Of a stretch of DNA of 28,353 bases, positions 5,659 to 23,693 are shown piece by piece (the stretch's first letter is position 1; every line of letters begins with the position of its first letter). The DNA is taken from positions 1 to 28,353 of the IMG/VR virus record IMGVR_UViG_3300042562_001318; one strand, 5' to 3'. This stretch comes from a virus. Under the pieces are notes generated by a model that was not told the DNA's origin, did not search any database, and was given only the letters and a program-made list of their open reading frames with translations. Both the position numbers and the translations under genes were made by a program.

Positions 5659-6297
5659 ATGGCAGCAAGATTCCCGTTAGTAATCAATACGACCACGGTG
5701 CAAGAACTTCAAAGCGGTGACACGCTTTCGCTGACATCACCTACGCTAGTGACTCCTATTCTTGGCACACCAACATCTGGAACGCTAACCAGTTGCACCG
5801 GACTTCCTATCTCAACAGGTGTAAGCGGACTCGGTACTAGCGTTGCAACTTTCTTGGCTACACCATCAAGCGCAAATCTTGCCTCATGCCTCACGGATGA
5901 AACTGGCACAGGGGCAAATGTTTTTGCCACTTCACCAACGCTCACAAGTGCAACGATCACCAGCCTTATCGAAACGAAAACCGCACCAACGATCTCCAGC
6001 GGAACGCTCACGCTAAACTGTGCGCTTGGGAATGTGTTTCATGTCTCGCTGAATGCAGCGATCACGACACTTACCATAAGCAACATACCGACCACAGGTT
6101 CAGCTTTCGGAATCACTCTGGCATTCACGATGGATGGAACGGCTCGAGCAGTGACATGGGGTGCTGCAATTAAGTGGGCCTCTGGTGGTACGGCACCAAC
6201 ACTCACAAGTACCAATAACAAAGTAGATATCTTTTGTCTCACAACATGGGATGGCGGTACTACATGGTTTGCAATGGTTGGAGGCCAGAACTTCTAA
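5659..6297 (+). CDS. Tail fibre protein with T-rich repeats
   Basis: This 212-residue protein starts after a strong TAGGAG site. The first half contains the common fibre repeat 'TSPTLVTPILGTPTSGTL', 'TGLPISTGVSGLGTSVATFL' and 'SSANLAS'. The second half is a typical fibre end domain ('NVFHVSLNAAITTLTISN', 'AVTWGAAIKWASGGTAPTL', 'DIFCLTTWDGGTTWFAMVGG') that closes in GGQNF. The 'SPTLVTP.LGTP.SG.L' module is shared with the gene at 4516. It overlaps the propeller gene by one base (TAATG). A structural adhesin component is strongly suggested. Confidence 0.72.
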   Translation: MAARFPLVINTTTVQELQSGDTLSLTSPTLVTPILGTPTSGTLTSCTGLPISTGVSGLGTSVATFLATPSSANLASCLTDETGTGANVFATSPTLTSATITSLIETKTAPTISSGTLTLNCALGNVFHVSLNAAITTLTISNIPTTGSAFGITLAFTMDGTARAVTWGAAIKWASGGTAPTLTSTNNKVDIFCLTTWDGGTTWFAMVGGQNF

Positions 6298-7304
6298 TGC
6301 CTATTAATAGAAAAATCATGGGTGTGAGTAGGGGCAAAGTGTTTACTGGTGCGTTGAGTGGTACTAGCACGATTGCGACTGGATCTGGCCCTAGAGGCGT
6401 TTGTATTTCCGCAGATGGCAGCAGCGTTTATGCTTCTTGTTTTAACGATACAGTATCAATCTTTAGCCGAAACACTTCAACAGGAGCTTTGTCTGGAACT
6501 AGCACCATTGCAACTGGATCACTTCCTTTCGGGATTTGCATCTCGGCAGATGGAAAGAGTGTTTACACTCCTAATTTCAGTTCAAATACAGTTTCAATCT
6601 TTAGCCGAAACATTTCAACAGGAGCCTTGTCTGGAACTAGTACCATTGCGACCGGGGCAAACCCTTACGCCATTTGTATTTCAGCAGATGGCACTAGCGT
6701 TTACGCAGCTAATTTAGGGGGTACGACGGTTTCAATCTTTAGCCGAAACACTTCAACAGGGGCTTTGTCTGGAACTAGCACCATTGCAACTGGGACAAGC
6801 CCTAGAGGCGTTTGTATTTCCGCAGATGGCACTAGCGTTTATGTGTGTAATTATGGAGCAGCGACTTTATCAATCTTTAGCCGAAACACTTCAACAGGAG
6901 CTTTATCTGGAACTAGTACCATTGCAACAGGAGGGCAACCACTTTTTGTTTGCATTTCGGCAGATGGTAAAAATGTATATGTAAGCAATGAAGGGTCTAC
7001 GACAGTTTCTATCTTTGATCGAAACACTTCAACAGGGGCTTTATCTGGTACTAGTACTATTGCAAGTGGCGCACAACCTTACGGCATTTGTATTTCCGCA
7101 GATGGAAAAAGTGTTTATGCAACTAATTTAGGAGGTACGACAGTTTCAATCTTTAGCCGAAACACTTCAACAGGAGCTTTGTCTGGAACTAGCACCATTG
7201 CAACTGGGACAAGCCCTTTCGGAATCTGCATTAGTTCTGACGATGCTAGTGTTTACACTGCTAATTCTGGGTCGGCCACAGTCTCAATCTTCACTCGGAG
7301 CTAA
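6297..7304 (+). CDS. Seven-bladed beta-propeller protein of near-identical YVTN-like repeats
   Basis: I place the start at ATG 6297, which overlaps the preceding stop (TAATG); the in-frame codons upstream lie inside the previous gene. After about 17 residues the 335-residue protein consists of seven blades of the form 'STGALSGTSTIATG' - variable turn - 'CISADG.SVY' - variable turn - 'TVSIFSRN'. Blade 1 is 45 residues and the others are 46, with no indels. The pattern matches YVTN/lactonase-like propellers (SADGxSVYVxN). Blades differ mainly in two short loops, so the propeller face is where binding could vary. Context suggests a virion adhesin or glycan-binding tip, not an enzyme. No catalytic residues are evident. 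Confidence 0.8.
   Translation: MPINRKIMGVSRGKVFTGALSGTSTIATGSGPRGVCISADGSSVYASCFNDTVSIFSRNTSTGALSGTSTIATGSLPFGICISADGKSVYTPNFSSNTVSIFSRNISTGALSGTSTIATGANPYAICISADGTSVYAANLGGTTVSIFSRNTSTGALSGTSTIATGTSPRGVCISADGTSVYVCNYGAATLSIFSRNTSTGALSGTSTIATGGQPLFVCISADGKNVYVSNEGSTTVSIFDRNTSTGALSGTSTIASGAQPYGICISADGKSVYATNLGGTTVSIFSRNTSTGALSGTSTIATGTSPFGICISSDDASVYTANSGSATVSIFTRS
6348..7304 (+). repeat. Seven tandem repeats of 138 bp (propeller blades)
   Basis: The conserved blade start (GGxGCnTTGTCTGG-type sequence) recurs at 6348, 6483, 6621, 6759, 6897, 7035 and 7173. Spacing is 135 bp for the first unit and exactly 138 bp for every later interval. Long stretches are identical at the nucleotide level, including third codon positions, which points to recent duplication or continuing gene conversion. 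Confidence 0.9.
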
Positions 7305-9412: not shown

Positions 9413-9671
9413 TTTCGACTGGCTAACTATCATTGATCGCTTAGGGCTACCATGCGTGGCCCTAATTGCAATTGGTTATGGCCTACACAACTCTGCTAGA
9501 TGGTTAGGAAATAACATCCTAATGCCCATTCATCAAAGGCACTTGGTTTTTTTAGACCGATTAGAAGCTGGCTTGAATCGGATTGTAGAAACCCAGCACG
9601 ACCAAAGCAGTCAGATAATTAACCTTACACAAAAGATTTCAGACTCGCTGGAATCACAGGAGAAGAAATAA
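9393..9671 (+). CDS. Holin-like protein with one transmembrane segment and coiled-coil tail
   Basis: This 92-residue protein starts at GTG 9393. Residues about 11-33 (LTIIDRLGLPCVALIAIGYG) form one hydrophobic span, followed by a basic junction (HNSARWLGNN) and a long helical, polar tail (HQRHLVFLDRLEAGLNRIV...IINLTQKISDSLE) with heptad character. Size, topology and position next to the peptidase fit a holin or pinholin, or a membrane-anchored lysis regulator. No family-specific motif is seen, so the assignment rests on topology and context. The stop overlaps the next start (TAATG). Confidence 0.5.
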   Translation: MVNPVYSFDWLTIIDRLGLPCVALIAIGYGLHNSARWLGNNILMPIHQRHLVFLDRLEAGLNRIVETQHDQSSQIINLTQKISDSLESQEKK

Positions 9672-10000: not shown

Positions 10001-10319
10001 ATTGTTCTTTGGTAAACCCAGATCTTCAAGGTGGGTTTCTGTAAGGAAGTCCCACCTTATTTCCAACCCTTTTTGTGCTGGGTGTGGGTGTGCCGACCCT
10101 ACGAAATTGAATGTCCACCACATCACCCCCTACCATGTTGACCCCAGTAAGGAACTATCCTCAGATAACTTAATCACCTTGTGTGAATCCAGTGCCAAGT
10201 GTCACTGGGTACTCGGGCATTTATTAGATTGGAAATCATGGAACCCAGACATTAGAATAGATTCTCAAAGATACTTTAGGAAATTGGAAAATAAACCAGT
10301 ATGGAAACGAACAACCTAG
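9987..10319 (+). CDS. HNH endonuclease-like protein
   Basis: This 110-residue protein overlaps the preceding gene by 14 bases. It has the HNH arrangement: CAGC (Cys30, Cys33), the catalytic-strand motif VHHITP (His44, His45), NLITLC (Asn61 to Cys66) and CHWVLGH (Cys72, His73, His78). The four cysteines fit a structural zinc site. It lies with late genes and away from the packaging HNH gene at 19399, so it could be a free-standing homing nuclease or an accessory in DNA metabolism. The fold is clear from motifs; the role is not. Confidence 0.7.
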   Translation: MLPYRLFFGKPRSSRWVSVRKSHLISNPFCAGCGCADPTKLNVHHITPYHVDPSKELSSDNLITLCESSAKCHWVLGHLLDWKSWNPDIRIDSQRYFRKLENKPVWKRTT

Positions 10320-10331
10320 GAGAAGGTTTCC

Positions 10332-10721
10332 ATGCGCAGAATGATCCATTGTCTTTTATGTGGTGAATTCAAGCCCCACAAGTCTCGTTATCTGTGCATG
10401 AAATGTTATCAAAATCCCCTCTCTAAAAATCTTAAGATACCAGTAAACTTCAGAGTGGAACGGATGGACCGTGAAGAGGTCGTCAGGTGCCCAGTTTTGC
10501 CACCCGATGAACCAACCATGGCAAAGCCTGGCACACAGGAAAAGATCGAAATCCTGACCGCACGATGGGCAGCAAACAGACTCTTATACCACCCCGATGA
10601 TAGTAAGGAAAACTACCAGCCGATAGTGCCAGAGGTGGGGGATGTGGACTGGACCAGCACTAAACCATCGGCATCTAAAAAGATTTTTAGGCTGACTTGT
10701 GATGCCCCAGAAGAGGATTAA
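10332..10721 (+). CDS. Zinc-ribbon hypothetical protein
   Basis: This 129-residue protein is preceded by TAGGAGAAGG. The N-terminus CLLC...YLCMKC (Cys7, Cys10, Cys22, Cys25) forms a probable zinc ribbon. A second conserved-looking block is 'PTMAKPGTQEKIEILTARW' with 'LLYHPDD', a pattern I have seen in hypothetical phage proteins. It is the last gene before the attachment region. A nucleic-acid-binding role is plausible. This gene shows that the DNA left of the attachment core is still phage. Confidence 0.55.
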   Translation: MRRMIHCLLCGEFKPHKSRYLCMKCYQNPLSKNLKIPVNFRVERMDREEVVRCPVLPPDEPTMAKPGTQEKIEILTARWAANRLLYHPDDSKENYQPIVPEVGDVDWTSTKPSASKKIFRLTCDAPEED

Positions 10722-10724
10722 TCT

Positions 10725-10954
10725 GTACTACATTTCAACCCAAATAACCACTATATACACATGAAAACGGATGCTAAACAGTACGACCAAACGCAACATA
10801 AAGCCTTAAATCAAAGGGGATTACAAGGATTTTAGGGGGTGTTGTATGATAGGTTGGGGTGGAAGAGGTCGCAGGTTCAAATCCTGTATCCCCGACTAGG
10901 GTTTGGTGAAAAAAAGGTGTGGTCAAAAAGTAGTACTGTACTACTTAGTACCAC
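10725..10954. repeat. Heptamer GTACNAC cluster flanking the att core (candidate integrase arm sites)
   Basis: GTACTAC occurs at 10725-10731 and 10938-10944, GTACGAC at 10781-10787, GTACCAC at 10948-10954, and the inverted form GTAGTAC at 10930-10936. Two copies lie left of the core and three lie right of it, as the arm-type sites of lambda-like integrases do. Assignment as integrase or excisionase sites is inferred. Confidence 0.45.
10854..10895 (+). other. attP core: 3' half of tRNA-Pro(GGG)
   Basis: The sequence reads as a tRNA from the anticodon loop to the discriminator: loop TTGGGGT with anticodon GGG (10856-10858), 3' anticodon stem GGAAG, variable loop AGGTC, T-arm GCAGG/TTCAAAT/CCTGT (10871-10887), acceptor strand ATCCCCG and base A10895, followed by CTA where CCA would be expected. 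The 5' anticodon-stem strand (expected CTTCC) is ATAGG, so there is no complete tRNA gene. A fragment beginning at the anticodon loop beside an integrase is the classic attachment core of tRNA-targeting phages. Confidence 0.8.
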
Positions 10955-11013: not shown

Positions 11014-12201
11014 ATGAAGAAAATTAAAGTGCCTGGGCTTTTACATCATAAGGCTAGGGATCTGGGTTACTCCATTGACCCACGCAATCGCAAGACCACC
11101 TACCATGGACCATTCGGTCTGGCCCAAACCACCGCAAACTATAAAAAATGGTTGTCAGAATATCTGGCCCAGGCTGATACCCAGATCCCAACCACACCCA
11201 CCGATAAAAAAGATCCTACCATTGCTGACCTTGTTGTGCACTTCTCCAAGTGGGCTGATATGTATTTCAGAAACCCTGCCACAGGTAAACCCACTAGCCA
11301 GATCCATGTTTTGAAATCAGCAATTCGGGAGCTTAAAGATTATCTGCAAACACCGATTGCAGAATTCACCCCTAGGGATCTCATCGCAGTCAGGGCTGGA
11401 TTGGTTCATCGTGACATCATGCCCCAGTCTATCTTTACCAAGAGAAAAAAACTAACCATCTCATCAGTCAATGGCTTGATCATTAAGATCAGGATGATGT
11501 TTAAAAGGGGTGTGGAATGGGGCTTGGTTCCCATCAATGTTTTTTCGGCACTCATGTGTGTCAAACCTTTGTCCTGGCGAACTGCTCCAACACTCCGAGA
11601 CCCTGCCCCAATTCAGCCTGTCGATGAGGCACACCTTGACCGCATTCAACCCCACCTTGCTCCGGTCTATCGGGTACTCATGTCTGTCCACCTTGCTACT
11701 GGGATGAGGATCAAAGAATTGATCGGGATGCGCTGGTCTGAAATCTCACAACATCCAGTTAAGCCTTGGCTCTATGTCTACCAGCCCACCACGCACAAGA
11801 ACTCCCACCGAAAACAAGACCGGAAGATCTTTATCCATGAATCATTCGTCAACCTAATGAAGATGACTAGGAAACCACTCTGGGAAAAAGACTTTGTGTG
11901 GTGCAGTAAAGGTAAGGGGATTAATGCTGGCTACTCAGGGCAGATGACCACGGCTGCATATTATCTCGCTGTCAAAAGTGCGATCAAGAAACATAACAAG
12001 ATCTCTAAGGTGAAGGTTCCCAACTTCACACCACTTCAGATCAGGCACACAGTAGCTACAAAAATAAATGAGTCTCATGGAATCCAAGCAGTGGCAGCAG
12101 TGCTGGGGCATGCGAAAATAAACACGGCCCAAATCTACGCTGAAACAAGCTTTACTGCTGCCATGGAGATTGCTGAAGTTACTCAAGTTAATTCCAGATA
12201 A
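11014..12201 (+). CDS. int: Tyrosine-type integrase
   Basis: This 395-residue site-specific recombinase would insert the phage at a host tRNA-Pro gene. The N-terminal part contains a SAM-like core-binding domain (about 67-175). The C-terminal catalytic domain (about 200-390) shows Arg232 in ATGMRIKEL, Lys262 in THKNSH, Arg344 in TPLQIRHTVAT, His366 in VLGHAKI and the nucleophile Tyr375 in TAQIYAE. The box II histidine (normally HxxR) is Leu341 here, an unusual substitution that some divergent phage integrases tolerate at this position. The gene lies 118 bases from the att core. An extended -10 element and a palindrome precede it. The start at 11014 has only a weak AAGGG ribosome site. Confidence 0.9.
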   Translation: MKKIKVPGLLHHKARDLGYSIDPRNRKTTYHGPFGLAQTTANYKKWLSEYLAQADTQIPTTPTDKKDPTIADLVVHFSKWADMYFRNPATGKPTSQIHVLKSAIRELKDYLQTPIAEFTPRDLIAVRAGLVHRDIMPQSIFTKRKKLTISSVNGLIIKIRMMFKRGVEWGLVPINVFSALMCVKPLSWRTAPTLRDPAPIQPVDEAHLDRIQPHLAPVYRVLMSVHLATGMRIKELIGMRWSEISQHPVKPWLYVYQPTTHKNSHRKQDRKIFIHESFVNLMKMTRKPLWEKDFVWCSKGKGINAGYSGQMTTAAYYLAVKSAIKKHNKISKVKVPNFTPLQIRHTVATKINESHGIQAVAAVLGHAKINTAQIYAETSFTAAMEIAEVTQVNSR

Positions 12202-13182: not shown

Positions 13183-13395
13183 ATGACACCAGCGCAAGTT
13201 CAGCTAATGCTCGAACTGCTAACCAAAGCTAACGAGTATAGCAACCAACTACACCCTGAGAACACTGACCGAGAGCAAAAGAATATTGAACGGAGGTTTA
13301 AAAAAACTTTGGAATCCATGTGTGAATATCTGGCAGTGATGACCGAACCACCATCAGGAGGCTATGGCAATGGCACTGATTCTAAAACGATTTGA
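13183..13395 (+). CDS. Small hypothetical helical protein
   Basis: This 70-residue protein has a strong AAGGAGG site before ATG 13183. It is mostly helical and charged (QLMLELLTKANEYSNQL, DREQKNIERRFKKTLESM) with a Gly-rich end. Its 3' end overlaps the next gene. No family is recognised. Early position and strong translation signal suggest a regulatory or host-takeover peptide. Confidence 0.5.
   Translation: MTPAQVQLMLELLTKANEYSNQLHPENTDREQKNIERRFKKTLESMCEYLAVMTEPPSGGYGNGTDSKTI
13356..13361 (+). promoter_or_regulatory. Ribosome site AGGAGG deciding the CsrA-like start
   Basis: AGGAGG lies two bases before ATG 13364 but eight before ATG 13370. The second distance is the normal one, which supports a start at 13370, where the protein would begin MALILKR like CsrA. 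Confidence 0.6.
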
Positions 13396-14752: not shown

Positions 14753-15219
14753 TGACTGTATCTGGTGAACCCGATTATGAAAAGCAAGTGGATCTGAATT
14801 CTAATTTTAGAAGCACCAAAGCTTCTGACCTAGAGGATGGCACCTACCTTGGTAGGGTTGAAAACGCATGGATCAAAGAGGTCAGTTCCCCTGTCACACC
14901 CTCAGGGAAACAAAAGGTCTTTGAGATTAACCTGGTGGTGGATGGCAGGTCTGTGCAGATCAGCTACTGGCTAGCCTCTGATGCCAACATGAAACGCTGC
15001 TTAATCAATTTGCAGAAAATTGGTTTTGATGTTCCGCAGTGGGGGCCGATGTTTGACCGACCCTACCTGGTTGAAATGGATAAGGCAGGGCTAGCGATGC
15101 GGGGCAAGACCCTGAGTTTTAGAAGAGATACCAATGGGCAATACAAGAATGTCACCCTTATGGCCTTGAGTGCGGACAGCATCCCCAGTCAGCCATCGGA
15201 AGATGACCTGCCCTTTTAG
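14752..15219 (+). CDS. ssDNA-binding-like protein with acidic EDDLPF tip
   Basis: This 155-residue protein starts in a TAATG overlap with the Gp157 gene. A beta-barrel-like core ('DGTYLGRVENAWIKE', 'KQKVFEINLVVDGRSVQISYWL', 'RGKTLSFRRDTNGQYKNVTLMAL') resembles DUF669-type phage proteins with an OB-fold. It ends EDDLPF, almost identical to the DDDIPF tip with which bacterial SSB recruits repair and replication proteins. It probably coats ssDNA for the annealing protein and recruits host factors. It is the last gene of this early block. Confidence 0.7.
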   Translation: MTVSGEPDYEKQVDLNSNFRSTKASDLEDGTYLGRVENAWIKEVSSPVTPSGKQKVFEINLVVDGRSVQISYWLASDANMKRCLINLQKIGFDVPQWGPMFDRPYLVEMDKAGLAMRGKTLSFRRDTNGQYKNVTLMALSADSIPSQPSEDDLPF

Positions 15220-15270
15220 ATACCCATTAGGGGTGGCGGGGTAACTCATGCTCCGAGACCTTTTGATGGG

Positions 15271-15296
15271 GCTGCTGTCACCCACCCAACAGCAGC
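15271..15296 (+). promoter_or_regulatory. Hairpin GCTGCTG/CAGCAGC in early intergenic region
   Basis: A seven-pair perfect stem (15271-15277 with 15290-15296) with a 12-base C-rich loop. The loop's CCCACCC could also pair with GGGGTGG near 15232. No T run follows. It forms part of a 193-base gene-free, structured segment (15220-15412). Confidence 0.4.
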
Positions 15297-15313
15297 AATA
15301 ATATTCATGCGCT

Positions 15314-15388
15314 TCAGCCTGGTTCGAGCCATATGAGATATACGGCCAAGTAACACACCTGACTTGTTGTCAGAACTGACCAGGCTGA
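15314..15388 (+). ncRNA. Putative three-helix RNA element in 5' leader
   Basis: TCAGCCTGGT (15314-15323) pairs perfectly with ACCAGGCTGA (15379-15388). Inside it are a hairpin GCC-ATAT-GAG-ATAT-AC-GGC (15328-15346) and a hairpin CTGAC-TTGTT-GTCAG (15359-15373), together a three-way junction of 75 bases. TTTTATATCACGGAGG and a GTG start follow, so it could be a leader regulator, a weak terminator or a small RNA. It is not a tRNA: no anticodon or T-arm fits. Confidence 0.4.
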
Positions 15389-15412
15389 TTTTATATCACG
15401 GAGGATTTTAAA

Positions 15413-16006
15413 GTGGATCTGATCGAACTAGGGAACACCAGTTTTCCACCGGACTTTCAACAAGAACCCAGCATTGAAACTGTAGCAAAACTTGCCAACA
15501 TCATGCTGGAAAATGAATGCTCCAAGCACATCCTTAAAGTGCAGAACATGGTGGTTACTCTGCGCAATGGTCATGTAAGCTTTGATCTGCTCGCACAGGT
15601 GCAGGGTGGGGTGAATGATGGGCTTAACATTCTCTACCCCATGACGATCACCGACATGGATGGGCTGAAACTCTGGGCTACCCAGATGACCTGCCTAGGA
15701 GCAAAGCCCTGGGAACTTGGCTATGGTCAACCCCTGTCCTTCGTTGAGGGTTGGGATGTTCTGAAGGCTGAGCTTAAGGATCAACTGATAGTTAGCCTAG
15801 CCACTCATTCTGTCTGTATTTATTTTCGTGCCAGTTACATCCTTTACGATGCTACCTGCTCTGAGTGCGTTAAAACCAGCCCACACTTCTGGTCGATCAC
15901 AGACCTTGAGATGTGGCTGAATCAAAAGGAATGGCTGGAATTCCCTGCTGAAGTTGGGGTGAAATATTTCTGCAAGAAATGTACCCGCAAGATTTTAAAA
16001 TTCTAA
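15413..16006 (+). CDS. Hypothetical protein with C-terminal zinc ribbon
   Basis: This 197-residue protein starts at GTG 15413, fixed by GGAGG ten bases upstream. The N-terminal 130 residues are of unknown fold. The C-terminal third has CSEC (Cys149, Cys152) and CKKC (Cys187, Cys190), a likely zinc ribbon. It lies downstream of a structured leader in the replication region. Nucleic-acid binding is plausible. The family is not recognised. Confidence 0.55.
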   Translation: MDLIELGNTSFPPDFQQEPSIETVAKLANIMLENECSKHILKVQNMVVTLRNGHVSFDLLAQVQGGVNDGLNILYPMTITDMDGLKLWATQMTCLGAKPWELGYGQPLSFVEGWDVLKAELKDQLIVSLATHSVCIYFRASYILYDATCSECVKTSPHFWSITDLEMWLNQKEWLEFPAEVGVKYFCKKCTRKILKF

Positions 16007-16020
16007 GAAGGAGAGATGAC

Positions 16021-16254
16021 ATGAATGAAAAACTACACCTACCCAACCCAGAACGATTGGCAGTATCTGCTAAGGAAGTTGCCAGAATGTTAGGCATTGG
16101 AAAGTCACAGGTGTTCAAACTGCTTCATGAAGGCCAGTTCCCTGAACCAATTCCCTTGGGGAAAAGGAATCCAAGATGGCTGATTTCTGATTTGGAAAAG
16201 TTCTTGGCATCTGGTGGAACCAACTATGAAAACCAAGGGGCAGCACCACTATGA
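16021..16254 (+). CDS. AlpA/excisionase-type HTH protein
   Basis: I place the start at ATG 16021, preceded by AAGGAG; an ATG at 15979 lacks a ribosome site and lies within the previous gene. The 77-residue product has the MerR-like winged HTH seen in AlpA and Xis proteins: 'AVSAKEVARMLGIGKSQVFK', then 'LLHEGQFPEPIPLGKRNPRW' and 'LISDLEKFLA'. It may direct excision with the integrase or act as an activator. Overlap ATGA with the next gene. Confidence 0.7.
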   Translation: MNEKLHLPNPERLAVSAKEVARMLGIGKSQVFKLLHEGQFPEPIPLGKRNPRWLISDLEKFLASGGTNYENQGAAPL

Positions 16255-16532
16255 AAGACCAGCAAACTTTCTTACCCTTTATGAAGGGTGATGGCTCAGC
16301 GATCAAACAAAACATCCAGCACCAGATGGAAGATGAACCAGACATTTTAAAAGAAGGACAGATGAAGGTGATTAAGAGAGCCTTAGAAACCTATCTGGAC
16401 ATCAGGTATTCTTCTAGGCGATTGCTTCTTCAAGAAGTATCAGCACACATAGATTCCTATGTTCAGAGATGGATTGAAGCAAAGTATCGAACCAATCGTC
16501 AGATATTAAAAACTAAAAGGCCTAAACAATGA
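16251..16532 (+). CDS. Small hypothetical protein
   Basis: This 93-residue protein is coupled to the HTH gene by ATGA and overlaps the next start. It is charged and mostly helical (KEGQMKVIKRALETYLDIRY, LLQEVSAHIDSYVQRWIEAK) with a basic C-terminus. The beginning 'MKDQQTFLPFMKGD' resembles a short protein-interaction peptide. No family is recognised. Confidence 0.5.
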   Translation: MKDQQTFLPFMKGDGSAIKQNIQHQMEDEPDILKEGQMKVIKRALETYLDIRYSSRRLLLQEVSAHIDSYVQRWIEAKYRTNRQILKTKRPKQ

Positions 16533-16825
16533 CTAGCCAACGCATCCCACATTTACCACCAGACGAACATGAAAACATCAGCGCATTCTTTGAGAGGTGC
16601 TCTGACCTAATCAAGGAACGAGCATCTGAGTATGAACCCCCAGCAATTAGCCTGGCTAAAATCGCATTGCACTGGCAGACCTACACCGACTGCAAAACCA
16701 CTCCCTACGATGTTGCCATAATGATGGCACTGTTAAAAATCGCGCGACTTTCTAAAGGGCATCATCAGGACAGTCTAGAAGATGCAGCAGCTTACTTAGC
16801 AATCGCAAACAGTCTAAAGGAGTAA
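16529..16825 (+). CDS. DUF6378-like all-helical protein
   Basis: This 98-residue protein overlaps the previous gene by four bases. The pattern 'FFERCSDLIKERASEY', 'LAKIALHWQTY', 'TPYDVAIMMALLKIARLSKG' and 'HQDSLEDAAAYLAIA' is that of the phage family DUF6378: helices with a conserved K-I-A-R and a D-S-L-x-D-x-A-x-Y motif, likened to MazG-type nucleotide pyrophosphatases. The acidic residues (Asp in TPYDVA, SLEDAA) could bind metal. A role in nucleotide pools is possible. Recognition is by pattern only. Confidence 0.6.
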   Translation: MTSQRIPHLPPDEHENISAFFERCSDLIKERASEYEPPAISLAKIALHWQTYTDCKTTPYDVAIMMALLKIARLSKGHHQDSLEDAAAYLAIANSLKE

Positions 16826-16826
16826 T

Positions 16827-16890
16827 CCACTGCACTGGGCCACCTCATCCTACCTGGGAATGAGGCAAGGCTGGTTAGACTTTGCAGTGG
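16827..16890 (+). promoter_or_regulatory. Structured element with terminator-like outer stem
   Basis: CCACTGCA (16827-16834) pairs perfectly with TGCAGTGG (16883-16890), enclosing a hairpin CCTCAT/ATGAGG (16843-16848 with 16860-16865). GTTTTTAT follows, so it may terminate transcription between the DUF6378 gene and the initiator, or act as a leader switch. Confidence 0.45.
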
Positions 16891-16903
16891 GTTTTTATCA
16901 CAA

Positions 16904-16923
16904 GGTGGGGGAATTACCCCACC
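16904..16923 (+). promoter_or_regulatory. Strong hairpin in the leader of the replication initiator
   Basis: GGTGGGG (16904-16910) pairs with CCCCACC (16917-16923) across the loop GAATTA, ending 19 bases before ATG 16943 and next to its AAAGAGAG ribosome region. It could limit initiator translation or be a protein-binding site. Confidence 0.45.
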
Positions 16924-16942
16924 CATAAATAAAGAGAGAAAC

Positions 16943-17707
16943 ATGAGCTACAAAATACGCAACTGGGAGAACTACCAGCACTTCAAGAATGGTTCACGGA
17001 ATCCACCATGGATCAAGCTTTACAAAGACCTCCTGAATAACCCTGATTGGCATGAGTTAGATGGTGACTCATGCAAGGTGCTAATCATGCTCTGGATGGT
17101 AGCCTCCGAGAACAGCGGTAACCTGCCTGATTTGAAAAAGGTGGCTTTCAGATTAAGGATGAATGAAGCCAAGCTAACTAAGGTAATTTCAGGGCTTTCT
17201 GGCTGGGTTTTGCCCAACGATATCAACATGATATCATCACGATATCAAGATGATATAGCAGATAAGAGTAGAGTAGATGAGAGTAGAGTAGATATAGAAA
17301 AAGATGTAGATGTAGATGTAGAGGTAGAGCATAGTTGTTCAGAACTGGAAGCCAGTTCCAAACCCTATGGCGATTTTGGTGAACCCCCAATCACATTTCC
17401 CACCAAAGGAACCCCTGCAGAATGGGTACTACCTATGGGGTTATTTTATGAGATTGAATTAACCTTCAAGGATGCCCCTATTTTGGATTGGATCAAACAG
17501 GCAAGGCTTTGGACCATTGCCAACCCAACCAAGCAAAAAACAGCAAGAGGGATGCCATCCTTTTTGATTGGATGGGTTACCCGACAGAATGATAGGCCAG
17601 CGCAGCCAAGAAGCTTTCAGGCCAATGGCAAAGCCAAACCCAATCTTCAAGAAGCCTTGGCAGCAATGCCCAAGGGATTTCAGTTACCACAGAGAGGCCA
17701 ACCGTGA
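16943..17707 (+). CDS. Phage replication initiator (replisome organiser) with internal origin
   Basis: This 254-residue protein has an N-terminal winged-helix type DNA-binding region of replisome organisers (about 1-90; 'PPWIKLYKDLLNNPDWHELD', 'VLIMLWMVASENSGNLPDLKKVAFRLRM'), a low-complexity linker (93-130; repeated S-R-V-D and DVDVDVEVE) coded by iterons, and a C-terminal part ('DWIKQARLWTIA', 'GMPSFLIGWVTRQND') typical of helicase-loader interaction domains. Its neighbours are Zn-finger and nuclease genes, with no helicase visible, so it probably recruits the host helicase. The architecture, with an origin inside the linker, is like lambda O. The upstream structured leader suggests controlled expression. 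Its stop overlaps the next GTG start. Confidence 0.75.
   Translation: MSYKIRNWENYQHFKNGSRNPPWIKLYKDLLNNPDWHELDGDSCKVLIMLWMVASENSGNLPDLKKVAFRLRMNEAKLTKVISGLSGWVLPNDINMISSRYQDDIADKSRVDESRVDIEKDVDVDVEVEHSCSELEASSKPYGDFGEPPITFPTKGTPAEWVLPMGLFYEIELTFKDAPILDWIKQARLWTIANPTKQKTARGMPSFLIGWVTRQNDRPAQPRSFQANGKAKPNLQEALAAMPKGFQLPQRGQP
17219..17329 (+). other. Putative replication origin: four iterons and a C-free tract
   Basis: GATATC or GATATA recurs at 17219, 17230, 17241 and 17252, exactly 11 bp apart. Bases 17260-17329 (70 nt) contain no cytosine and include two direct copies of GAGTAGAGTAGAT (17266-17278 and 17281-17293) and AGATGT triplets from 17302. Iterons followed by a strand-asymmetric, easily melted tract inside the initiator gene is the lambda ori design. 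Function is inferred. Confidence 0.6.
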
Positions 17708-18378
17708 ACATCACAATTAATGCAAACCAACCTTATTTCGACTGGCCCGATTGGATCCAGTTTCATTCAACTTTTTATGGCTGGGATGGCGAAAGGGAAT
17801 TAAAAATGCTACTCGCATGGTCAGTCTATTTTGCATCAGAGGGTTATGGACCTGAAGAACTGCTTGCAGCTTCAAAGGATCTGACAGGGGTCAAAATATT
17901 CAAACGAGAGGAAACCATTCACGAATTGGAAAAGGCTTTGCGGATCCGCAGGGAGAACTACCGCAGGACTACCAAACATGAGATGGCTGATTGTTCCATG
18001 TGTCGTGGCACTGGTCTAGTTCTGGTACCTTTCCTTAGCCATGTTAAGAATGGGATCTGGTCAAGTAAATCAAAGTGCTGGGTGAGCTGCATCTGCATCA
18101 ACTCCCTACCATTCAAAACCAGTGCATCAGGTGAAGGAAAGAAATCCGTCATGACCTTGGAAATCTATGAGCTAAAGAATCCAGACTGGATGCGACAGAT
18201 GGCGCAGTGTGAAGAGAGTGAGCGCAACCTGGCTAAAACCATTAACGAACTAAACCCCAATGGCAACAAGCCACTGGATGATATTCTTGACCGCATCACC
18301 AAACGATTCAAAGAAAATCCAGTTGCAGAACCACCACCCAAAATGATTGTTGATGCATCTGTTCGGACTTATGGTTAG
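17704..18378 (+). CDS. DnaJ-type zinc-finger protein of the replication region
   Basis: This 224-residue protein starts at GTG 17704, overlapping the initiator's stop. The middle has CSMCRGTG (Cys97, Cys100; the DnaJ-like CxxCxGxG) and a partner set CWVSCIC (Cys125, Cys129, Cys131). The N-terminal 90 residues are helical ('REKMLLAWSVYFASEGYG'-type), and the C-terminal part is charged. There is no Walker motif, so it is not a standard DnaC-like loader. Immediate coupling to the initiator suggests it helps origin firing or helicase loading. The exact family is unknown. Confidence 0.55.
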   Translation: MNITINANQPYFDWPDWIQFHSTFYGWDGERELKMLLAWSVYFASEGYGPEELLAASKDLTGVKIFKREETIHELEKALRIRRENYRRTTKHEMADCSMCRGTGLVLVPFLSHVKNGIWSSKSKCWVSCICINSLPFKTSASGEGKKSVMTLEIYELKNPDWMRQMAQCEESERNLAKTINELNPNGNKPLDDILDRITKRFKENPVAEPPPKMIVDASVRTYG

Positions 18379-18422
18379 ACTCTGCTTAGGGATGGATCCC
18401 GTAACAGGAAAAGGAATCCATC

Positions 18423-19040
18423 TTGCTTAGCACCGTTCAATTTAATCACAATGATACTGCCCTGCTTTGGATGGCAGGCAGTGCTAAGGCTGAGTGGTTC
18501 AGATCACATCGATGGCCTAACACCAAGACTCCCAAGCTCGCATCCTACAACCTCACACCCGATGAGGAACAGCACTACATGCAGTTCATTGGGCTGGCAG
18601 GTGAAGCTGCCATCCATCGGATCCTCTATGGTGATCTGCATAGGTTTTGGATAGCGCAAGGACTGCAACAGAAATCACACAGGGGAGATGGTGGCAATGA
18701 TCTGCCAGGGCTGGACATCAAATGTGCAGACATGATCGGTGGGAAAGTTCCCAACCTTCTGATTCAAGCAAAGCTAATCAAACCCGAAACCATTTACATC
18801 TTAGCAATCGCTTCAGTGGATGAACCCAAGAAGCCTGAACTGCTCGAGGTGAAGGTGCTGGGCTGCATCAGGGGTAGTAGTGCCAGAGTGCATGGATCTA
18901 TCGTTGAATTCCATTACCTCAACTACCTAGTATCAGCCGAACAGCTAACCCCTATTGATGTGCTGAAGTGGCCAGAGTTAGCAGGAGATCAACAACTACA
19001 ATTTGCAGATTGCTCACCTCATGCACAGGATGGGGTATGA
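18423..19040 (+). CDS. PD-(D/E)XK-like nuclease
   Basis: This 205-residue protein starts at TTG 18423, supported by AAAGGA (18410-18415). The core 'FIGLAGEAAIHRILYG' (Glu61) followed by 'GDGGNDLPGLDIK' (Asp93, Asp98, Lys100) and a strand 'LLIQAK' matches PD-(D/E)XK nucleases of the 'GDGG-D..G.DVK' type found in phages. It could be a resolvase or a restriction-like host-DNA nuclease. It overlaps rusA by ATGA, so it may serve recombination with RusA. The target is not predictable. Confidence 0.6.
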   Translation: MLSTVQFNHNDTALLWMAGSAKAEWFRSHRWPNTKTPKLASYNLTPDEEQHYMQFIGLAGEAAIHRILYGDLHRFWIAQGLQQKSHRGDGGNDLPGLDIKCADMIGGKVPNLLIQAKLIKPETIYILAIASVDEPKKPELLEVKVLGCIRGSSARVHGSIVEFHYLNYLVSAEQLTPIDVLKWPELAGDQQLQFADCSPHAQDGV

Positions 19041-19399
19041 AATTGCAGCTACCCATTCCACCATCGGCTAACCACATATTCCGAGCTACTAGGCGAGGTC
19101 AGGTGTATAGGTCCAAGAAATACATCGACTGGCACCACGCTGCTGAACTCATGGCATTGGCAACCAAGCAGGGCAAGCCAATCAGCCCACCCTATGCGGT
19201 CACCATGCTGATCATTGGTGGTCAGGGCTGGCGCAAGGATAGAGATTTGGACAACATCTGGAAGCCAGTGCTTGATCTGTTGCAGCACATCCATTTAATC
19301 AAAGAGGATAACTGTCAACACATAACCCGATTGGTTGTAACCTATCAGCCTGGGGATGGTAGACCCGCAGAATGCCATCTGACGATTGGAGCTGCCTGA
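19037..19399 (+). CDS. rusA: RusA-family Holliday junction resolvase
   Basis: I place the start at ATG 19037 (ATGA overlap with the nuclease gene), giving 120 residues, the same length as E. coli RusA. The family features are all visible: 'IPPSANHIFR' near the N-terminus, 'SKKYIDW', the catalytic acids Asp70 and Asp72 in KDRDLDN, Lys76, and Asp91 in LIKEDN, each at the number used for the E. coli enzyme. RusA cuts four-way junctions symmetrically, which would resolve branched DNA before packaging. An in-frame ATG at 18968 lies deep in the upstream gene and is unlikely. Confidence 0.9.
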   Translation: MKLQLPIPPSANHIFRATRRGQVYRSKKYIDWHHAAELMALATKQGKPISPPYAVTMLIIGGQGWRKDRDLDNIWKPVLDLLQHIHLIKEDNCQHITRLVVTYQPGDGRPAECHLTIGAA

Positions 19400-19710
19400 T
19401 GCCTTGGGATCCTAAGCCACACAACCCAGAAGGGAATGGGAAGAAAAAGAAACAGCACCCATCCAGACCTGACCGCAGACATCGAGGGTATGACCACACC
19501 TGGTCTAAGATCCGATTAGCGGTACTCAGGGAAGATCCTGTGTGCGTTAAGTGCTTATCACCTGCCACAGTAGTGGATCATATCAAGCCCCTCAAGGATG
19601 GTGGCAGCAATGACAGGCTAAACCTTCAGCCTATGTGCGCATCATGCCACAACAGCAAGACATGGCATGAAACATGGGAAAAAAAGATAGTTAGGAAGAA
19701 AAAGCCCTGA
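19399..19710 (+). CDS. HNH endonuclease beside terminase
   Basis: I place the start at ATG 19399, overlapping the rusA stop (TGATG); 103 residues. After a Lys-rich start the HNH core is clear: CVKC (Cys49, Cys52), VVDHIKPLKDGG (Asp60, His61), NLQPMC (Asn75 to Cys80) and CASCHNSKT (Cys80, Cys83, His84). HK97-type phages carry such an HNH gene just before terS and terL, where the protein is needed for cos cleavage together with terminase. That role is the best inference here. Confidence 0.85.
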   Translation: MPWDPKPHNPEGNGKKKKQHPSRPDRRHRGYDHTWSKIRLAVLREDPVCVKCLSPATVVDHIKPLKDGGSNDRLNLQPMCASCHNSKTWHETWEKKIVRKKKP

Positions 19711-19792: not shown

Positions 19793-19822
19793 CGATTTTG
19801 AACCGATTTTTTAACCGATTTT
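19793..19822 (+). repeat. Three CGATTTT repeats upstream of terS
   Basis: CGATTTT occurs at 19793, 19804 and 19816, about one helical turn apart, with the spacers GAAC and TTAAC. They precede the GAAAGGA ribosome site of terS. Position suggests binding sites for the small terminase or a regulator. An eight-G run lies at 19738-19745. The gap 19711-19834 holds no gene. Confidence 0.45.
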
Positions 19823-19834
19823 GAAAGGATATGT

Positions 19835-20317
19835 ATGAAGCGAGGGAAGAAGCCAATTAAAAGAGTCTTGATATCTCAAAAAGCTGATCCGAGACCAGGC
19901 ACAATTAATCCAAACCCTGTTGAATGGAAAGTTACTGACCCAGTGATGCCCGACTGGTTAGATAAAGTTGGAAAAAAGAAATGGCTCGAGTTGATGAATG
20001 GATTAAAGCCGATGGCAATTTTATCACCAGTGGATTCAGATCTGATTGCTAACTACTGCGCCTTGTATTCTCAGGTGGTGAGATGCCAGCACAAAATAAA
20101 TGAGACAGAAGGTTTCATCGAGACTGCAGGTGGCAGTGTGAAAAGTCATCCAGCAGTGGATCAGTTCACCGCACTTTCATCACGCATGCTAGCCATGGGA
20201 AAATGCCTGGGCTTATCACCACTGGCCAGAGTTAAGTTAGTGGCAGATCCACAGGTGCAGGAAAAAAACTGGCTGAGTGAAATCTGTGGAGTAGATGACA
20301 AGGAGGCTGATGAGTAA
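19835..20317 (+). CDS. terS: Terminase small subunit, P27 family
   Basis: This 160-residue protein starts at ATG 19835 after GAAAGGA. 'PVMPDWLDKVGKKKWLEL' (the family's W-x-E motif region), 'LSPVDSDLIANYCALYSQVV', 'GGSVKSHPAVDQF' and 'LGLSPLARVKL' are in the order seen in P27-type small terminases. The subunit recognises packaging DNA and passes it to the large subunit. Position between the HNH gene and terL is standard. Its end overlaps the terL start. Confidence 0.85.
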   Translation: MKRGKKPIKRVLISQKADPRPGTINPNPVEWKVTDPVMPDWLDKVGKKKWLELMNGLKPMAILSPVDSDLIANYCALYSQVVRCQHKINETEGFIETAGGSVKSHPAVDQFTALSSRMLAMGKCLGLSPLARVKLVADPQVQEKNWLSEICGVDDKEADE

Positions 20318-21836
20318 ACCCGATCCCATGATAATTCCCTTTATCGAAAGAGCATTACGGCATCATAAAGGGGAGTGGGCAGGGAAGGGATTTAAGCTGC
20401 AGGGATGGCAGAAAGAAATCTTAAGAGAAGTATTCGGGAATGTGGACAAGCATGGTAACCGAGTTATCAGGCAAGTTTATTTGGAAGTGCCCAGAAAATC
20501 TGGCAAAACAACTTTGGCAAGTGCCATTGCACTTTGGCTACTGATCGAAGGCGAGCCTGGTGCAGAGATATATTCCGCAGCAGCTTCCAGAGAGCAAGCC
20601 CACATCTGTTTTGACAGTGCCAAAAACATGGTGGAGGGATGCCCAGCACTCAAGAATAAGCTGGAACCCTATAAGCAGACGATCATTTATCCTCAAACGA
20701 AAAGCATTTACAAGTCCATCAGTGCCGATGCCTACACAGCGCATGGGGCAAATGCCCATGGAATCATCATCGATGAATTGCACACTCAGAAATCGCGCGA
20801 TCTTTATGATACTTTGCTGACCTCAACGCTATCCAGACGGCAGCCTTTAGTGGTAATGATCACCACAGCAGGGTCTGATAGAACATCATTCTGTCATGAG
20901 ATGCATACCTACGCTCAGAGGTGGATGGATGGCACGATTAAAAACAAAGCTTTTTACGCAAAGATCTATGCTGCGGATCTCGATGATGACTGGACCCAAG
21001 AGGAAACATGGCGCAAGGCTAACCCAGGCTATGGGATCACCGTGAAGCCCGAATATTTTTTTCAACAGGTGCAGGAATGTAAGGACAACCCAGCCAAGGA
21101 AGCGAGCTTTCGCAGAGATCATCTGAACCAGTGGGTGGAAACTGATGTCAGGTGGATCAGTCCTTTGAAGTGGGATGAATGTCAGGTGCCTATGCCCGAT
21201 CTGATTGGTAGGGAATGTTATGCTGGACTGGATCTTTCAGCCACGATGGATCTTACTGCGCTCACTTTATTTTTTCCAAGTACCTATGAGGATGAACCAC
21301 ACTTCATGCTGCCGATCTTCTGGGCACCGAGTGAAGCAAACAAACTGCGGGAGAAATTGAATCGTCAAAGGATTGGACCATGGGTGAAACAGGGATTCAT
21401 CAACGAGACCGAAGGAAACCGGATCGACTACAGAAAGATCAAGCAGCAGATCATGGAACTGGGGGAGAAGTATAAGATTTTGGAAATCGCTTTTGATCCA
21501 TGGCATGCTGATCAGATCGTTCATGAATTATCAGATCATTTCGAGATGGTGAAGTTCGGCCAAACACCAGCGAACCTATCACCACCCACCAAAAAACTAG
21601 AGGAATTCATCCTGACTAAGCAGGTGGCGCATGCTGGAAACCCTGTTTTAAGGTGGAATCTTGGGAACATTGCTTGCAGCCTTGATGACAACAATAACTA
21701 CAAGTTGTCGAAAAAGAAATCTCGTGACAAGATAGATGGAATTATAGCTGGAGTTATGGCCGTAGGTCGATGGATGGTGACAGCGCAGAACGAAAGCACC
21801 GAAAACAACACAGGAGCGGGAATAGAATTCCTGTAA
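20310..21836 (+). CDS. terL: Terminase large subunit
   Basis: I place the start at ATG 20310, behind AGGAGG and overlapping the terS stop; ATG 20295 lies before that site. The 508-residue motor-nuclease has an N-terminal ATPase with Walker A PRKSGKT (61-67) and Walker B IIIDE (152-156), and motif III near VVMITTAG. The C-terminal RNase H-like nuclease has metal-binding acids in GLDLSATMD (Asp308), FDPWHAD (Asp396) and KIDGIIA (Asp476). It is an HK97-type large terminase, so the phage probably packages by the cos mechanism. Complete length; no damage seen. Confidence 0.95.
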   Translation: MSKPDPMIIPFIERALRHHKGEWAGKGFKLQGWQKEILREVFGNVDKHGNRVIRQVYLEVPRKSGKTTLASAIALWLLIEGEPGAEIYSAAASREQAHICFDSAKNMVEGCPALKNKLEPYKQTIIYPQTKSIYKSISADAYTAHGANAHGIIIDELHTQKSRDLYDTLLTSTLSRRQPLVVMITTAGSDRTSFCHEMHTYAQRWMDGTIKNKAFYAKIYAADLDDDWTQEETWRKANPGYGITVKPEYFFQQVQECKDNPAKEASFRRDHLNQWVETDVRWISPLKWDECQVPMPDLIGRECYAGLDLSATMDLTALTLFFPSTYEDEPHFMLPIFWAPSEANKLREKLNRQRIGPWVKQGFINETEGNRIDYRKIKQQIMELGEKYKILEIAFDPWHADQIVHELSDHFEMVKFGQTPANLSPPTKKLEEFILTKQVAHAGNPVLRWNLGNIACSLDDNNNYKLSKKKSRDKIDGIIAGVMAVGRWMVTAQNESTENNTGAGIEFL

Positions 21837-21839
21837 ATC

Positions 21840-23693
21840 ATGCCTTTTAAATCCATCAGATCCCTCTTTGCAAACACCATCAACAAATTAGCTGGCTATA
21901 GTTTGGTTACCGACTCTGGATCTTGGACCTACACAGGCATTTCTACCACTGGCCAGAATGTTAATCAAGCATCATCGATGACTTATTCCGCAGTGTGGGC
22001 AGCAGTCAGGGCTATCTCTGAAGGTGTTGCCAGTCTGCCATTGCAAGTATTCCGCAGGGGTCATGATGGTTCAAGATCAAAGGCTAATGATCATCCTATT
22101 TATAGAATCCTGCACGATCAGCCAAACCCAGAAATGAGTGCCTTAACTTTTCGTGAAACCCTCATGGGGCATTCGCTCGTTTGGGGTAATGGCTATGCAG
22201 AAATAGTCAGGGATAAAAACTCTGGGAGAGTGCAACAACTCTGGCCACTCGATCCTTCACAGGTTGAACCTGTGCGAGATGAGAATGGCGAACTGTTTTA
22301 CAAATACGGATCAGTGATCTTTTTACCCTCAGAGATTTTGCACATCAAGGGTCTAAGCTTTGACGGTGTGAAAGGGTACTCAGTAATTGCCCAGGCTAAA
22401 AATTCAATCGGTCTTGGAATGGCTGTAGAAGAATTCGGCTCAACCTTCTTTGGTCAAGGTGGAAAACCTGCTGGGGTCATCAGCGTTCCTGGCAAGCTTA
22501 ATTCAGAAGCTATCCAGAACATGCGGAAATCATGGGAGGATATGCATGCGACTGTTAAGAATGCACATCGAGTAGCGATATTGCAAAATGGTGTAACCTA
22601 TCAGACCATAGGAACCCCACCCGATGATGCACAGTGGATAGCCTCTAGGCAGTTTCAACTTCAAGAAGTGGCTAGGTGGTTCAAGATTCCAGCCAGCAAA
22701 ATAGGAGCAGGTGCAGGAACTTACAGCAGTTTAGAACAGGACAACCTAGCATTCCTTCAGGAAACTTTGAGACCATGGTTAATCCGATGGGAGCAGGAAA
22801 TTAACTTCAAGTTGATAAGCTCGCTGGACCAGCTTTATGCAGAGCATAATCAAGATGCATTACTTAGGGGTGACACCGCAGGCAGATCAGCATTTTATGC
22901 TAGTGCGCTTAGTTGGGGATGGTTATCTAGAAATGATGTGAGAGCATTGGAGAACCTACCACCCTTTGAAGGTGGTGATGCCTACATGGTACCAAAGAAT
23001 ATGGATCCTGCGTTTGGACCAGGACAAACACCAGCAGCAGTAGACCAGGCAAAAACTTTAGGCCAGATGCCAACCCCACCCACACCCGATCCAATCCCAG
23101 CACCAATAGCACCACCCACCGCAGATGTGGCAGCAACAGCTTTAAATGGCGCACAGATCACATCGTTAGTCGATCTAGTGGCTAAGGTTGGTGAAGGTTT
23201 AATACCAATGGAATCGGCCAAGGCTATTGCCCTAGCATCATTCCCATTTCTGGATCAGACTATTTTGGATTCCATCTTCTCAGGTCTGAAGATTACCCCA
23301 CCCACACCCGATCCAATCCCTGCACCACAACAAAACAGCTTTGGCTTTGCTAAGTTGTTAGAAGCTGCCAGAAAACAAATCAGAAAGATTGAAGCAAACC
23401 ATTTGGGAAGGATCAGCAATAAGCCTGGGGAATTCATCCCAGCCTTAGAAAAGTTTTTGGAAGCCCATCAGGAAAGGGTGCAGATCATCCTTGAACCTGT
23501 CCTTGAATTCATTCAGCCGGAATCGGGTGGTGGTGTCCGAGCTGCTGCAGATCACTGTGAAGCATTGAAGGCTGAATGGTTAGACTTAGCTGGATCAGCC
23601 ACACCTAGAAATCTAAAACTTTTGGCCGATGAGAAACTTAAGAACTGGATCGATACCAAAGCTAACTGGGAGAAAGTCACATGGTTAAACTAG
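21840..23693 (+). CDS. Portal protein, HK97 type, with long C-terminal extension
   Basis: This 617-residue protein starts at ATG 21840, three bases after terL. The HK97 portal core is in the first ~390 residues: 'MTYSAVWAAVRAISEGVASL', 'RILHDQPNPEMSALTFRETL', 'NGYAEIVRD', 'LWPLDPSQV', 'EILHIKGLSFDG', 'SLEQDNLAFLQETLRPW'. The remaining ~200 residues hold two Pro-rich linkers (PPTPDPIPAP) flanking a helical segment 'NGAQITSLVDLVAKVGEGLI', 'AKAIALASFPFLD', then another helical domain. The extension is unusual for HK97 portals and might bind scaffold, DNA or minor head proteins. The portal is the dodecameric DNA channel. It overlaps the protease gene by 13 bases. Confidence 0.9.
   Translation: MPFKSIRSLFANTINKLAGYSLVTDSGSWTYTGISTTGQNVNQASSMTYSAVWAAVRAISEGVASLPLQVFRRGHDGSRSKANDHPIYRILHDQPNPEMSALTFRETLMGHSLVWGNGYAEIVRDKNSGRVQQLWPLDPSQVEPVRDENGELFYKYGSVIFLPSEILHIKGLSFDGVKGYSVIAQAKNSIGLGMAVEEFGSTFFGQGGKPAGVISVPGKLNSEAIQNMRKSWEDMHATVKNAHRVAILQNGVTYQTIGTPPDDAQWIASRQFQLQEVARWFKIPASKIGAGAGTYSSLEQDNLAFLQETLRPWLIRWEQEINFKLISSLDQLYAEHNQDALLRGDTAGRSAFYASALSWGWLSRNDVRALENLPPFEGGDAYMVPKNMDPAFGPGQTPAAVDQAKTLGQMPTPPTPDPIPAPIAPPTADVAATALNGAQITSLVDLVAKVGEGLIPMESAKAIALASFPFLDQTILDSIFSGLKITPPTPDPIPAPQQNSFGFAKLLEAARKQIRKIEANHLGRISNKPGEFIPALEKFLEAHQERVQIILEPVLEFIQPESGGGVRAAADHCEALKAEWLDLAGSATPRNLKLLADEKLKNWIDTKANWEKVTWLN
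23074..23327 (+). repeat. Duplicated Pro-rich linker in the portal gene
   Basis: Two 32-bp copies (23074-23105 and 23296-23327), differing at one base, code for the PPTPDPIPAP linkers either side of the inserted helical segment. The near-identity suggests a recent duplication and a recombination-mediated domain insertion. Confidence 0.75.

Follow-up and report, generated by a model that had tools for sequence, protein, structure and literature searches.

A probable replication origin element inside the initiator gene of a temperate tailed phage, and its counterparts in environmental viruses

It is already known that iterons may be located inside an initiator gene and that a DNA-binding domain may be exchanged along with an origin. 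One example of the former is phage lambda, whose origin lies in gene O, with several iterons and then a region presumed to open (passages of PMC5043065). Another is the RepA_N plasmid pSK41, with Rep boxes inside rep, and in pPR9 the N-terminal domain and ori were exchanged together (both in passages of PMC5703833). In the RepA/ori system of the Vibrio phage satellite PLE, the DNA-binding domain covaries with the origin while the C-terminal domain is constant (passages of PMC8263062), and helically phased iterons are described as usual in plasmids (a passage of PMC5043065). Here we report on IMG/VR virus record IMGVR_UViG_3300042562_001318 (28,353 bases, analyzed over its whole length and referred to below as the window), in which four short iterons and a purine-rich tract are located within a replication initiator gene. 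Judging from the sequence, this element is probably one half of a replication origin of the phage, the half bound by the initiator, and is embedded in the initiator's own gene. It is set apart from the known systems by iteron cores of 6-8 bp one helical turn apart, a two-class GMTAKC code, a fixed YAGAG tract and its breadth in environmental phages. Literature searches, covering open-access titles and the beginnings of abstracts, with most subscription journals outside their reach, found no description of such arrays. The parts of the element are as follows.

16943..17707, + strand: replication initiator gene, 254 aa, containing the entire element (open reading frame, ORF; phrog_26426 match)
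17024..17233, + strand: winged-helix-type domain, residues 28-97 (AlphaFold2), presumed to bind the array
17219..17224, + strand: iteron 1, GATATC
17230..17235, + strand: iteron 2, GATATC
17241..17246, + strand: iteron 3, GATATC
17252..17257, + strand: iteron 4, GATATA, a degenerate unit, likewise in relatives
17234..17392, + strand: linker, residues 98-150, mostly predicted to be disordered (predicted local distance difference test, pLDDT)
17259..17329, + strand: purine-rich YAGA tract, C-free at 17260-17329, with CAGA first occurring 7 nt past the first base of iteron 4
17393..17704, + strand: C-terminal domain, of a kind exchanged among relatives (AlphaFold2, comparison of kin)

An earlier note on this DNA had described four GATATC/GATATA units at exact 11-bp steps, and the array is indeed of this form, with GATATM units starting at 17219, 17230, 17241 and 17252, the first of them 276 bp inside the initiator ORF. 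In 400 first-order Markov windows (+ strand), GATATM never occurred even three times at a single spacing between 7 and 40, and all four iterons are expected in approximately 7e-5 of synonymous recodings based on codon use elsewhere in the ORFs of the family. Within the window no other lag-11 stretch is as strong as the array (24 of 33 comparisons), and a more general lag-11 statistic for the window gives p = 0.020 against synonymous shuffles. A hairpin can be formed by the array (z -3.3), as the iteron units are palindromes; an Rfam search returned nothing at gathering score. A repeat of this kind could conceivably result from peptide conservation, as a by-product, or from microsatellite expansion, and the 21-bp period found in loci of the L358 type (L numbers are our handles for individual loci) does double as a seven-codon repeat. 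However, the offsets of the four iterons from the start codon are 0, 2, 1, and 0 modulo 3 (encoded peptide DINMISSRYQDDI), and a repeat that passes through three codon frames must belong to the DNA and not to the peptide.

The relatives retrieved by protein similarity bear on the same question. From 114 such loci with the domain, 95 distinct regions were obtained after dropping identical or cut regions (identical or cut ORFs were also dropped in the tract, codon, array-typing and composite-element analyses). When lags 7-20 were compared, lag 11 came first in 85.8 of the 95 (ties shared), and at this lag 79 regions were above synonymous shuffles at p<0.05, and 41 at p<=0.005. Thus in the alignment of iteron regions from related initiators, as suggested in the earlier note, the 11-bp spacing is kept in most of them and not lost. 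The peptide D.I..IS..YQ.D occurs in 47 of 98 ORFs, and all 47 encode it with ATA, TCA, and TAT, which elsewhere in these ORFs make up 20, 25, and 61% of the respective codons. This exclusive codon use, along with the kept 11-bp lag, shows that selection acts on DNA. In addition, GCTAGC arrays encode different residues at the equivalent place, and minisatellites of a near-identical 11-mer, (GCTATCCCACG)n, which repeat the whole 11-mer, occur outside initiator ORFs (L419, L420, L433, L449, L463, and others). Altogether, the by-product explanation is contradicted for the iterons, and we consider it highly improbable. With respect to the unit itself, the GATATC/GATATA definition of the earlier note holds for the window, while among relatives the conserved unit is instead GMTAKCA plus 3-4 free bases, with unit 4 degenerate, as seen in 218 distinct composite elements (from 361 ORFs with the domain, with identical or cut elements and those with more than three mismatches dropped). 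In the rhizobial loci L209, L210 and L214, a regular alternation of 10 and 11 bp is found, i.e., 21 bp.

The array can also be recognized by DNA pattern. A scan of viral contigs for GATATC(N5)GATATC(N5)GATATC identified at least 119 stretches, and 101 of those listed are inside an initiator-type ORF, with membership assigned by an N-domain hidden Markov model (HMM) built from ten seeds (E up to 1e-3). The pattern TGCTAGC(N4)TGCTWGC(N4)TGCTWGC was found in 71 stretches, 57 of them inside such an ORF (reverse orientation counted). Full control scans with the same GATATC hexamers gave 19 stretches at 12 bp and 14 at 10 bp, none of these in an initiator-type ORF. The stretches outside initiator ORFs (18 GATATC among those listed, 14 TGCTAGC) include, as judged by eye, truncated copies of the gene (L076, L174), a DUF6291 protein (L055), a weak DUF1376 match (L185), unrelated genes and tandem repeats. 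The arrays begin a few bases behind the end of the HMM domain (medians 6 and 5 nt). A four-unit GMTAKC scan returned 112 stretches, with 61 of the 111 listed and examined inside an ORF with the initiator N-domain. Counted from these sequence matches, arrays laid out in this way and spelled in two main forms are present in some two hundred distinct sequences, mostly of uncultivated phages. Among the matches listed, 575 of 600 stretches in environmental phages encode a relative. Named-phage records numbered 33 at E up to 1 (nine with a second query); 23 of the 33 are Vibrio phages, mostly with weak C-terminal matches among the matches listed. A search designated A1 among 398 genomes of the phylum of G004 returned the seed genome only. 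One named relative, Limnohabitans phage DC33 (PQ492659.1; L007, L504), is filed under Inoviridae, yet its record is 39 kb and carries the initiator, probably a taxonomy error. Two similar genes have GATATC 11-bp arrays just upstream of their likely start codons (L062 near 540, L099 near 1449), the gene behind the array in L062 carrying an HTH_36 domain.

Arrays at 11 bp are also found behind a different domain. In genomes, 5 of 29 readable DUF1376 loci (a thirtieth was masked) scored higher at lag 11 than any of 60 synonymous shuffles, the ORF being taken as the longest across the locus center and not checked individually. The significant loci (L326, L329, L345, L349, L350) have 11-bp repeats of other unit sequences behind the domain, and, with only five positive, the 11-bp rule is not general among DUF1376 proteins. 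The linker of L439:979-1716 (-), with a DUF1376 match at E 2.9e-22, contains the units GCTAGC, GCTAGC, GCTATC, and GCTATC at 11 bp, and the linker of L185:1644-2642 (+), whose DUF1376 match is weak (E 0.0034), contains GMTAKC units at 11 bp.

Among 201 distinct initiators, 126 have GATATC arrays, 64 have GCTAGC arrays, and 11 are mixed or unclear; the 11 were left out of pair comparisons, for which BLAST alignments of 60 (N) or 50 (C) residues were required. Array type differs in 23 of 6234 pairs with N-domain identity of at least 60%, in 47 of 182 pairs with C-domain identity of 60-80%, and in 2 of 98 pairs with C-domain identity of at least 80%. L056 and L190, for example, have C-domains 83% identical over 110 residues and N-domains 44% identical, and their array types differ. 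As read from these sequences, the DNA-binding domain and the array change type together over shared C-terminal domains, in natural module swaps, and the domain-array unit is thus exchangeable against the C-domain. Together with the DNA-level conservation described above, this makes it very likely that the array is what the initiator itself binds, as one part of an origin lying within the initiator gene. An operator within the gene, by which the initiator or another regulator would repress its own transcription, with replication starting elsewhere, would explain the joint change equally well through binding by the adjoining domain, and the arrays of L062 and L099, which closely precede the probable start of an HTH-type gene, are in an operator-like place. 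On the other hand, 276 bp of the ORF precede the window's array, no excess of promoter-like sites is seen in 15200-18500 (3 found versus 5.4 expected, one of the three, at 17210-17237, overlapping the array), and the fixed YAGAG tract behind the array would be left unexplained, making an operator rather unlikely in our view.

The window's own kin, as retrieved via the next gene, come in three module types; of these 29 loci, 28 contain the initiator domain. Three loci (L356, L357, L378) are of the GATATC type, and the proteins of L356 and L357 are identical to the window's. Eighteen have GCTAGC/GCAAGC units at 11, 10, and 11 bp, so that two steps add up to 21 bp, or two turns; in L375 and L376 a unit is altered. 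In the remaining seven (L363-L367, L383, L384), an HNH domain is located in frame between the DNA-binding domain and a YAGAG tract. The HNH motif was found in all seven, and Pfam HNH, run on two of them, matched at E 1.5e-12 and 5.6e-13. A YAGAG-type tract follows the HNH domain in all seven; in L367 and L384 a 21-bp repeat is also present behind this domain, the other five (L363-L366, L383) being without a clear array. The C-domains of these HNH-type initiators are 60-83% identical to the window's, and in L367 the C-domain is 83% and the N-domain 50% identical. They recall Odn, in which a nuclease is joined to an origin-binding domain; however, Odn is described as a nuclease plus a DNA-binding domain only (passages of PMC8263062), while the HNH-type initiators retain the initiator C-domain. 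In L409:335-1153 (+), the N-terminal part of a glutamine amidotransferase is joined to an initiator array and C-terminal part, by a frameshift, a chimeric contig or a real fusion.

As to the tract behind the array, the earlier note had claimed 70 nt free of cytosine, and these are found at exactly 17260-17329, in the only run of at least 50 nt without C or G in the window. Synonymous recoding of the codons in 17258-17329 gave a mean of 7.0 C versus 1 observed, with none of 5000 recodings as low, and so the C-free run exceeds the needs of the peptide. An A+T, strand-biased unwinding region, which the note described for lambda O, is not supported here as a general feature. Where the lambda type has an A+T-rich opening region behind the iterons, the window's tract is mildly A+T-rich (64-66%), and the corresponding 60 nt in relatives have a GC content of 46-47% and are C-free in 3 of 223 cases, the window's own copy included; the A+T, C-free composition is thus a local form, and we rejected it as a conserved feature. 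The purine content of the relatives' tracts is 76% versus 72% in synonymous nulls. In 175 of 218 distinct elements, the distance from the start of unit 4 to the first YAGAG is exactly 7 nt, a phase that the window shares through CAGA at 17259, and YAGA steps are mostly spaced by 6 nt or multiples of it. The predicted folding of the window's tract is 0 kcal/mol on both strands, i.e., without secondary structure. The tract encodes in-frame repeats (DKSRV/DESRV, ET repeats) that may expand by slippage, and part of it may be such a by-product. We presume 17259-17329 to be the site of strand opening or helicase loading. The tract may provide a register for single-strand binding, a landing site for a helicase, or start sites for a primase on the pyrimidine strand, roles that are not separable here.

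As the earlier note had it, the array is a DNA-level feature of a replication initiator gene (phrog_26426 'replication protein' match), and it is located between the DNA-binding and C-terminal domains. This family matches the window's initiator at E 6.7e-10 over residues 4-110 (an N-domain profile), and all 58 of the initiator relatives scanned; within these 58, matches to other families are seen too, namely to DnaD-like loaders (19 members), primosomal proteins (15), and O-like proteins (14), for which match positions are not given. In some named relatives, the gene behind the initiator encodes a replicative helicase, a primase (in a relative without the array) or DnaC, and in others a cytosine methyltransferase or hypothetical proteins. 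Partition loci also show phased short repeats beside the gene of a DNA-binding protein, and the array might in principle serve partition, packaging or phage exclusion instead of replication. Against this stand the replication protein match of the host gene in 58 of 58 members and the helicase, primase or DnaC gene that follows in some, not all, of the named relatives, and we judge such roles quite improbable. In the AlphaFold2 model of the initiator, mean pLDDT per block is 90-97 over residues 31-90, 62 at 91-100, then 53, then 40-46 up to residue 150, with values <50 at residues 119-148. The last helix of the winged-helix domain overlaps iterons 1 and 2. The C-domain is modeled as helical with moderate confidence, and its matches to the phrog_1032 replication initiation protein are weak (E 0.19 and 0.047). 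Foldseek found nothing for the model at E<=0.001. In VIA-align, initiator/Rep entries were recovered (4pql_A, Z 5.9; 4pt7_B, 5.8; 5kbj_C, 5.6; 4pta, 5.2), with DnaD N-domains, LexA and MntR tying with them (Z 5.2-5.9). The four are, we presume, staphylococcal plasmid initiators, an assumption of ours with which passages of PMC5703833 agree. These neighbors represent a common fold and are only suggestive.

Of the 'lambda-like' origin proposed in the earlier note, the layout is supported, and kinship with O, lambda iteron geometry and a general A+T, C-free region are not supported. The note had itself described the iterons as shorter than those of lambda and one helical turn apart, and this is correct: the cores here are of 6-8 bp at 11 bp, while lambda iterons are inverted repeats of 18 bp that bind O dimers, spaced by 20, 24, and 23 bp, about two turns. 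Our lag method, applied to lambda O, returned the same 20, 24, and 23 bp as the record annotation of these 18-bp iterons. The window's initiator has no detectable similarity to lambda O (hhalign probability 0.3%), and no homology with lambda O or P was found; any kinship would be remote. By analogy, the window's layout fits pSK41 rep as well as lambda O. Unlike the RepA_N type of pSK41, the initiator is not matched by Pfam RepA_N up to E 1; by fold, its match to the Rep entries is of middling strength, and DnaD, LexA and MntR match equally well. The PLE ori is also different, being intergenic, with three semi-palindromic iterons of ~30 bp (passages of PMC8263062).

A number of observations weigh against an initiator-bound origin at this place. 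First, the domain adjoins the array, and linkage alone would explain their co-inheritance. Second, 50 of the 111 four-unit GMTAKC stretches are outside ORFs with the N-domain, representing minisatellites, other initiator types, and unassigned places. Third, some initiators deviate: L009 and L208 have no array (the linker of L208 resembles the HNH type), L221 has one clean unit, L222 has two, L223 has three at 12 bp, and the seven HNH-carrying kin lack an 11-bp array. Fourth, the purine excess of the tract is beyond the peptide's needs only in a minority, namely 38 of 96 and 51 of 127 at p<0.05. Finally, GC-skew minima are found away from the array, at 17115 in L505 (array at 9451), at 13270 in the window, and at 19121 in L504 (initiator gene 10211-10942, - strand, its array unmatched by our script), and GC skew, which gave no support, was rejected as an origin locator.

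If the element is indeed the initiator-binding half of an origin, the following scheme may be proposed. As the sequences show, selection on DNA keeps a row of GMTAKCA units, one turn apart, at the border of domain and linker, with the purine-rich YAGAG tract at a fixed phase behind them, and domain and array switch type jointly while the C-terminal part is shuffled. We infer that the winged-helix domains of several initiators would bind adjacent units along a single DNA face, spanning about four turns, that the bound complex would open the unstructured purine/pyrimidine tract, and that the C-domains would recruit a helicase or its loader, perhaps with the product of the next gene. The flexible linker would tolerate any peptide dictated by the origin. 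A broader and rather doubtful proposal is that of a widespread and portable origin cassette, in which the winged-helix domain, the one-turn GMTAKC array and the YAGAG tract would be pasted between C-terminal recruiting domains, with the tract as the joint, recurring in DUF1376 linkers (of L439 and perhaps L185) and serving as a target for invading HNH nucleases, YAGAG acting as a single-strand-binding register like DnaA-trios. Were this proposal true, both origin and specificity class would be readable from sequence in uncultivated phages. The origins of most such phages are unknown, and here a DNA pattern whose geometry is fixed indicates where the origin likely lies, to which class (GATATC or GCTAGC) it belongs and which domain is its cognate. 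The natural swaps suggest which part carries specificity, and they offer a ready test of a small winged-helix initiator opening DNA from sites one turn apart. The element also presents a case of an overlapping DNA signal dictating protein sequence.

By profile matches of its genes, the 28,353-base record is a temperate tailed phage, with the following genes around the element.

11014-12201: integrase
15979-16254: excisionase-like
17704..18378, + strand: next gene, 224 aa, its start overlapping the initiator end (29 related loci)
18968-19399: RusA
19835-21836: terminase subunits
21840-23693: portal

The product of the next gene (P0002) is, by position alone, a candidate helicase-loading or primosomal partner. 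Its best matches in PHROG and Pfam were at E 0.14 or worse, NCBIfam gave zero matches, similarity to lambda P was not found, and its AlphaFold2 model is without confidence (pLDDT 34). The window ORF 16529-16825 matches PHROGs labeled 'phosphofructokinase' (best E 1.2e-18), a label made doubtful by its 98 aa. An HNH endonuclease gene is present at 19372-19710 (phrog_144, E 4e-21), and behind it, directly before the small terminase gene, a near-tandem 11-12-bp repeat (19793-19825) is a possible packaging site. Tandem repeats of 138 bp, alternatively read as 414 bp, occupy 6359-7232 in the ORF 6234-7304.
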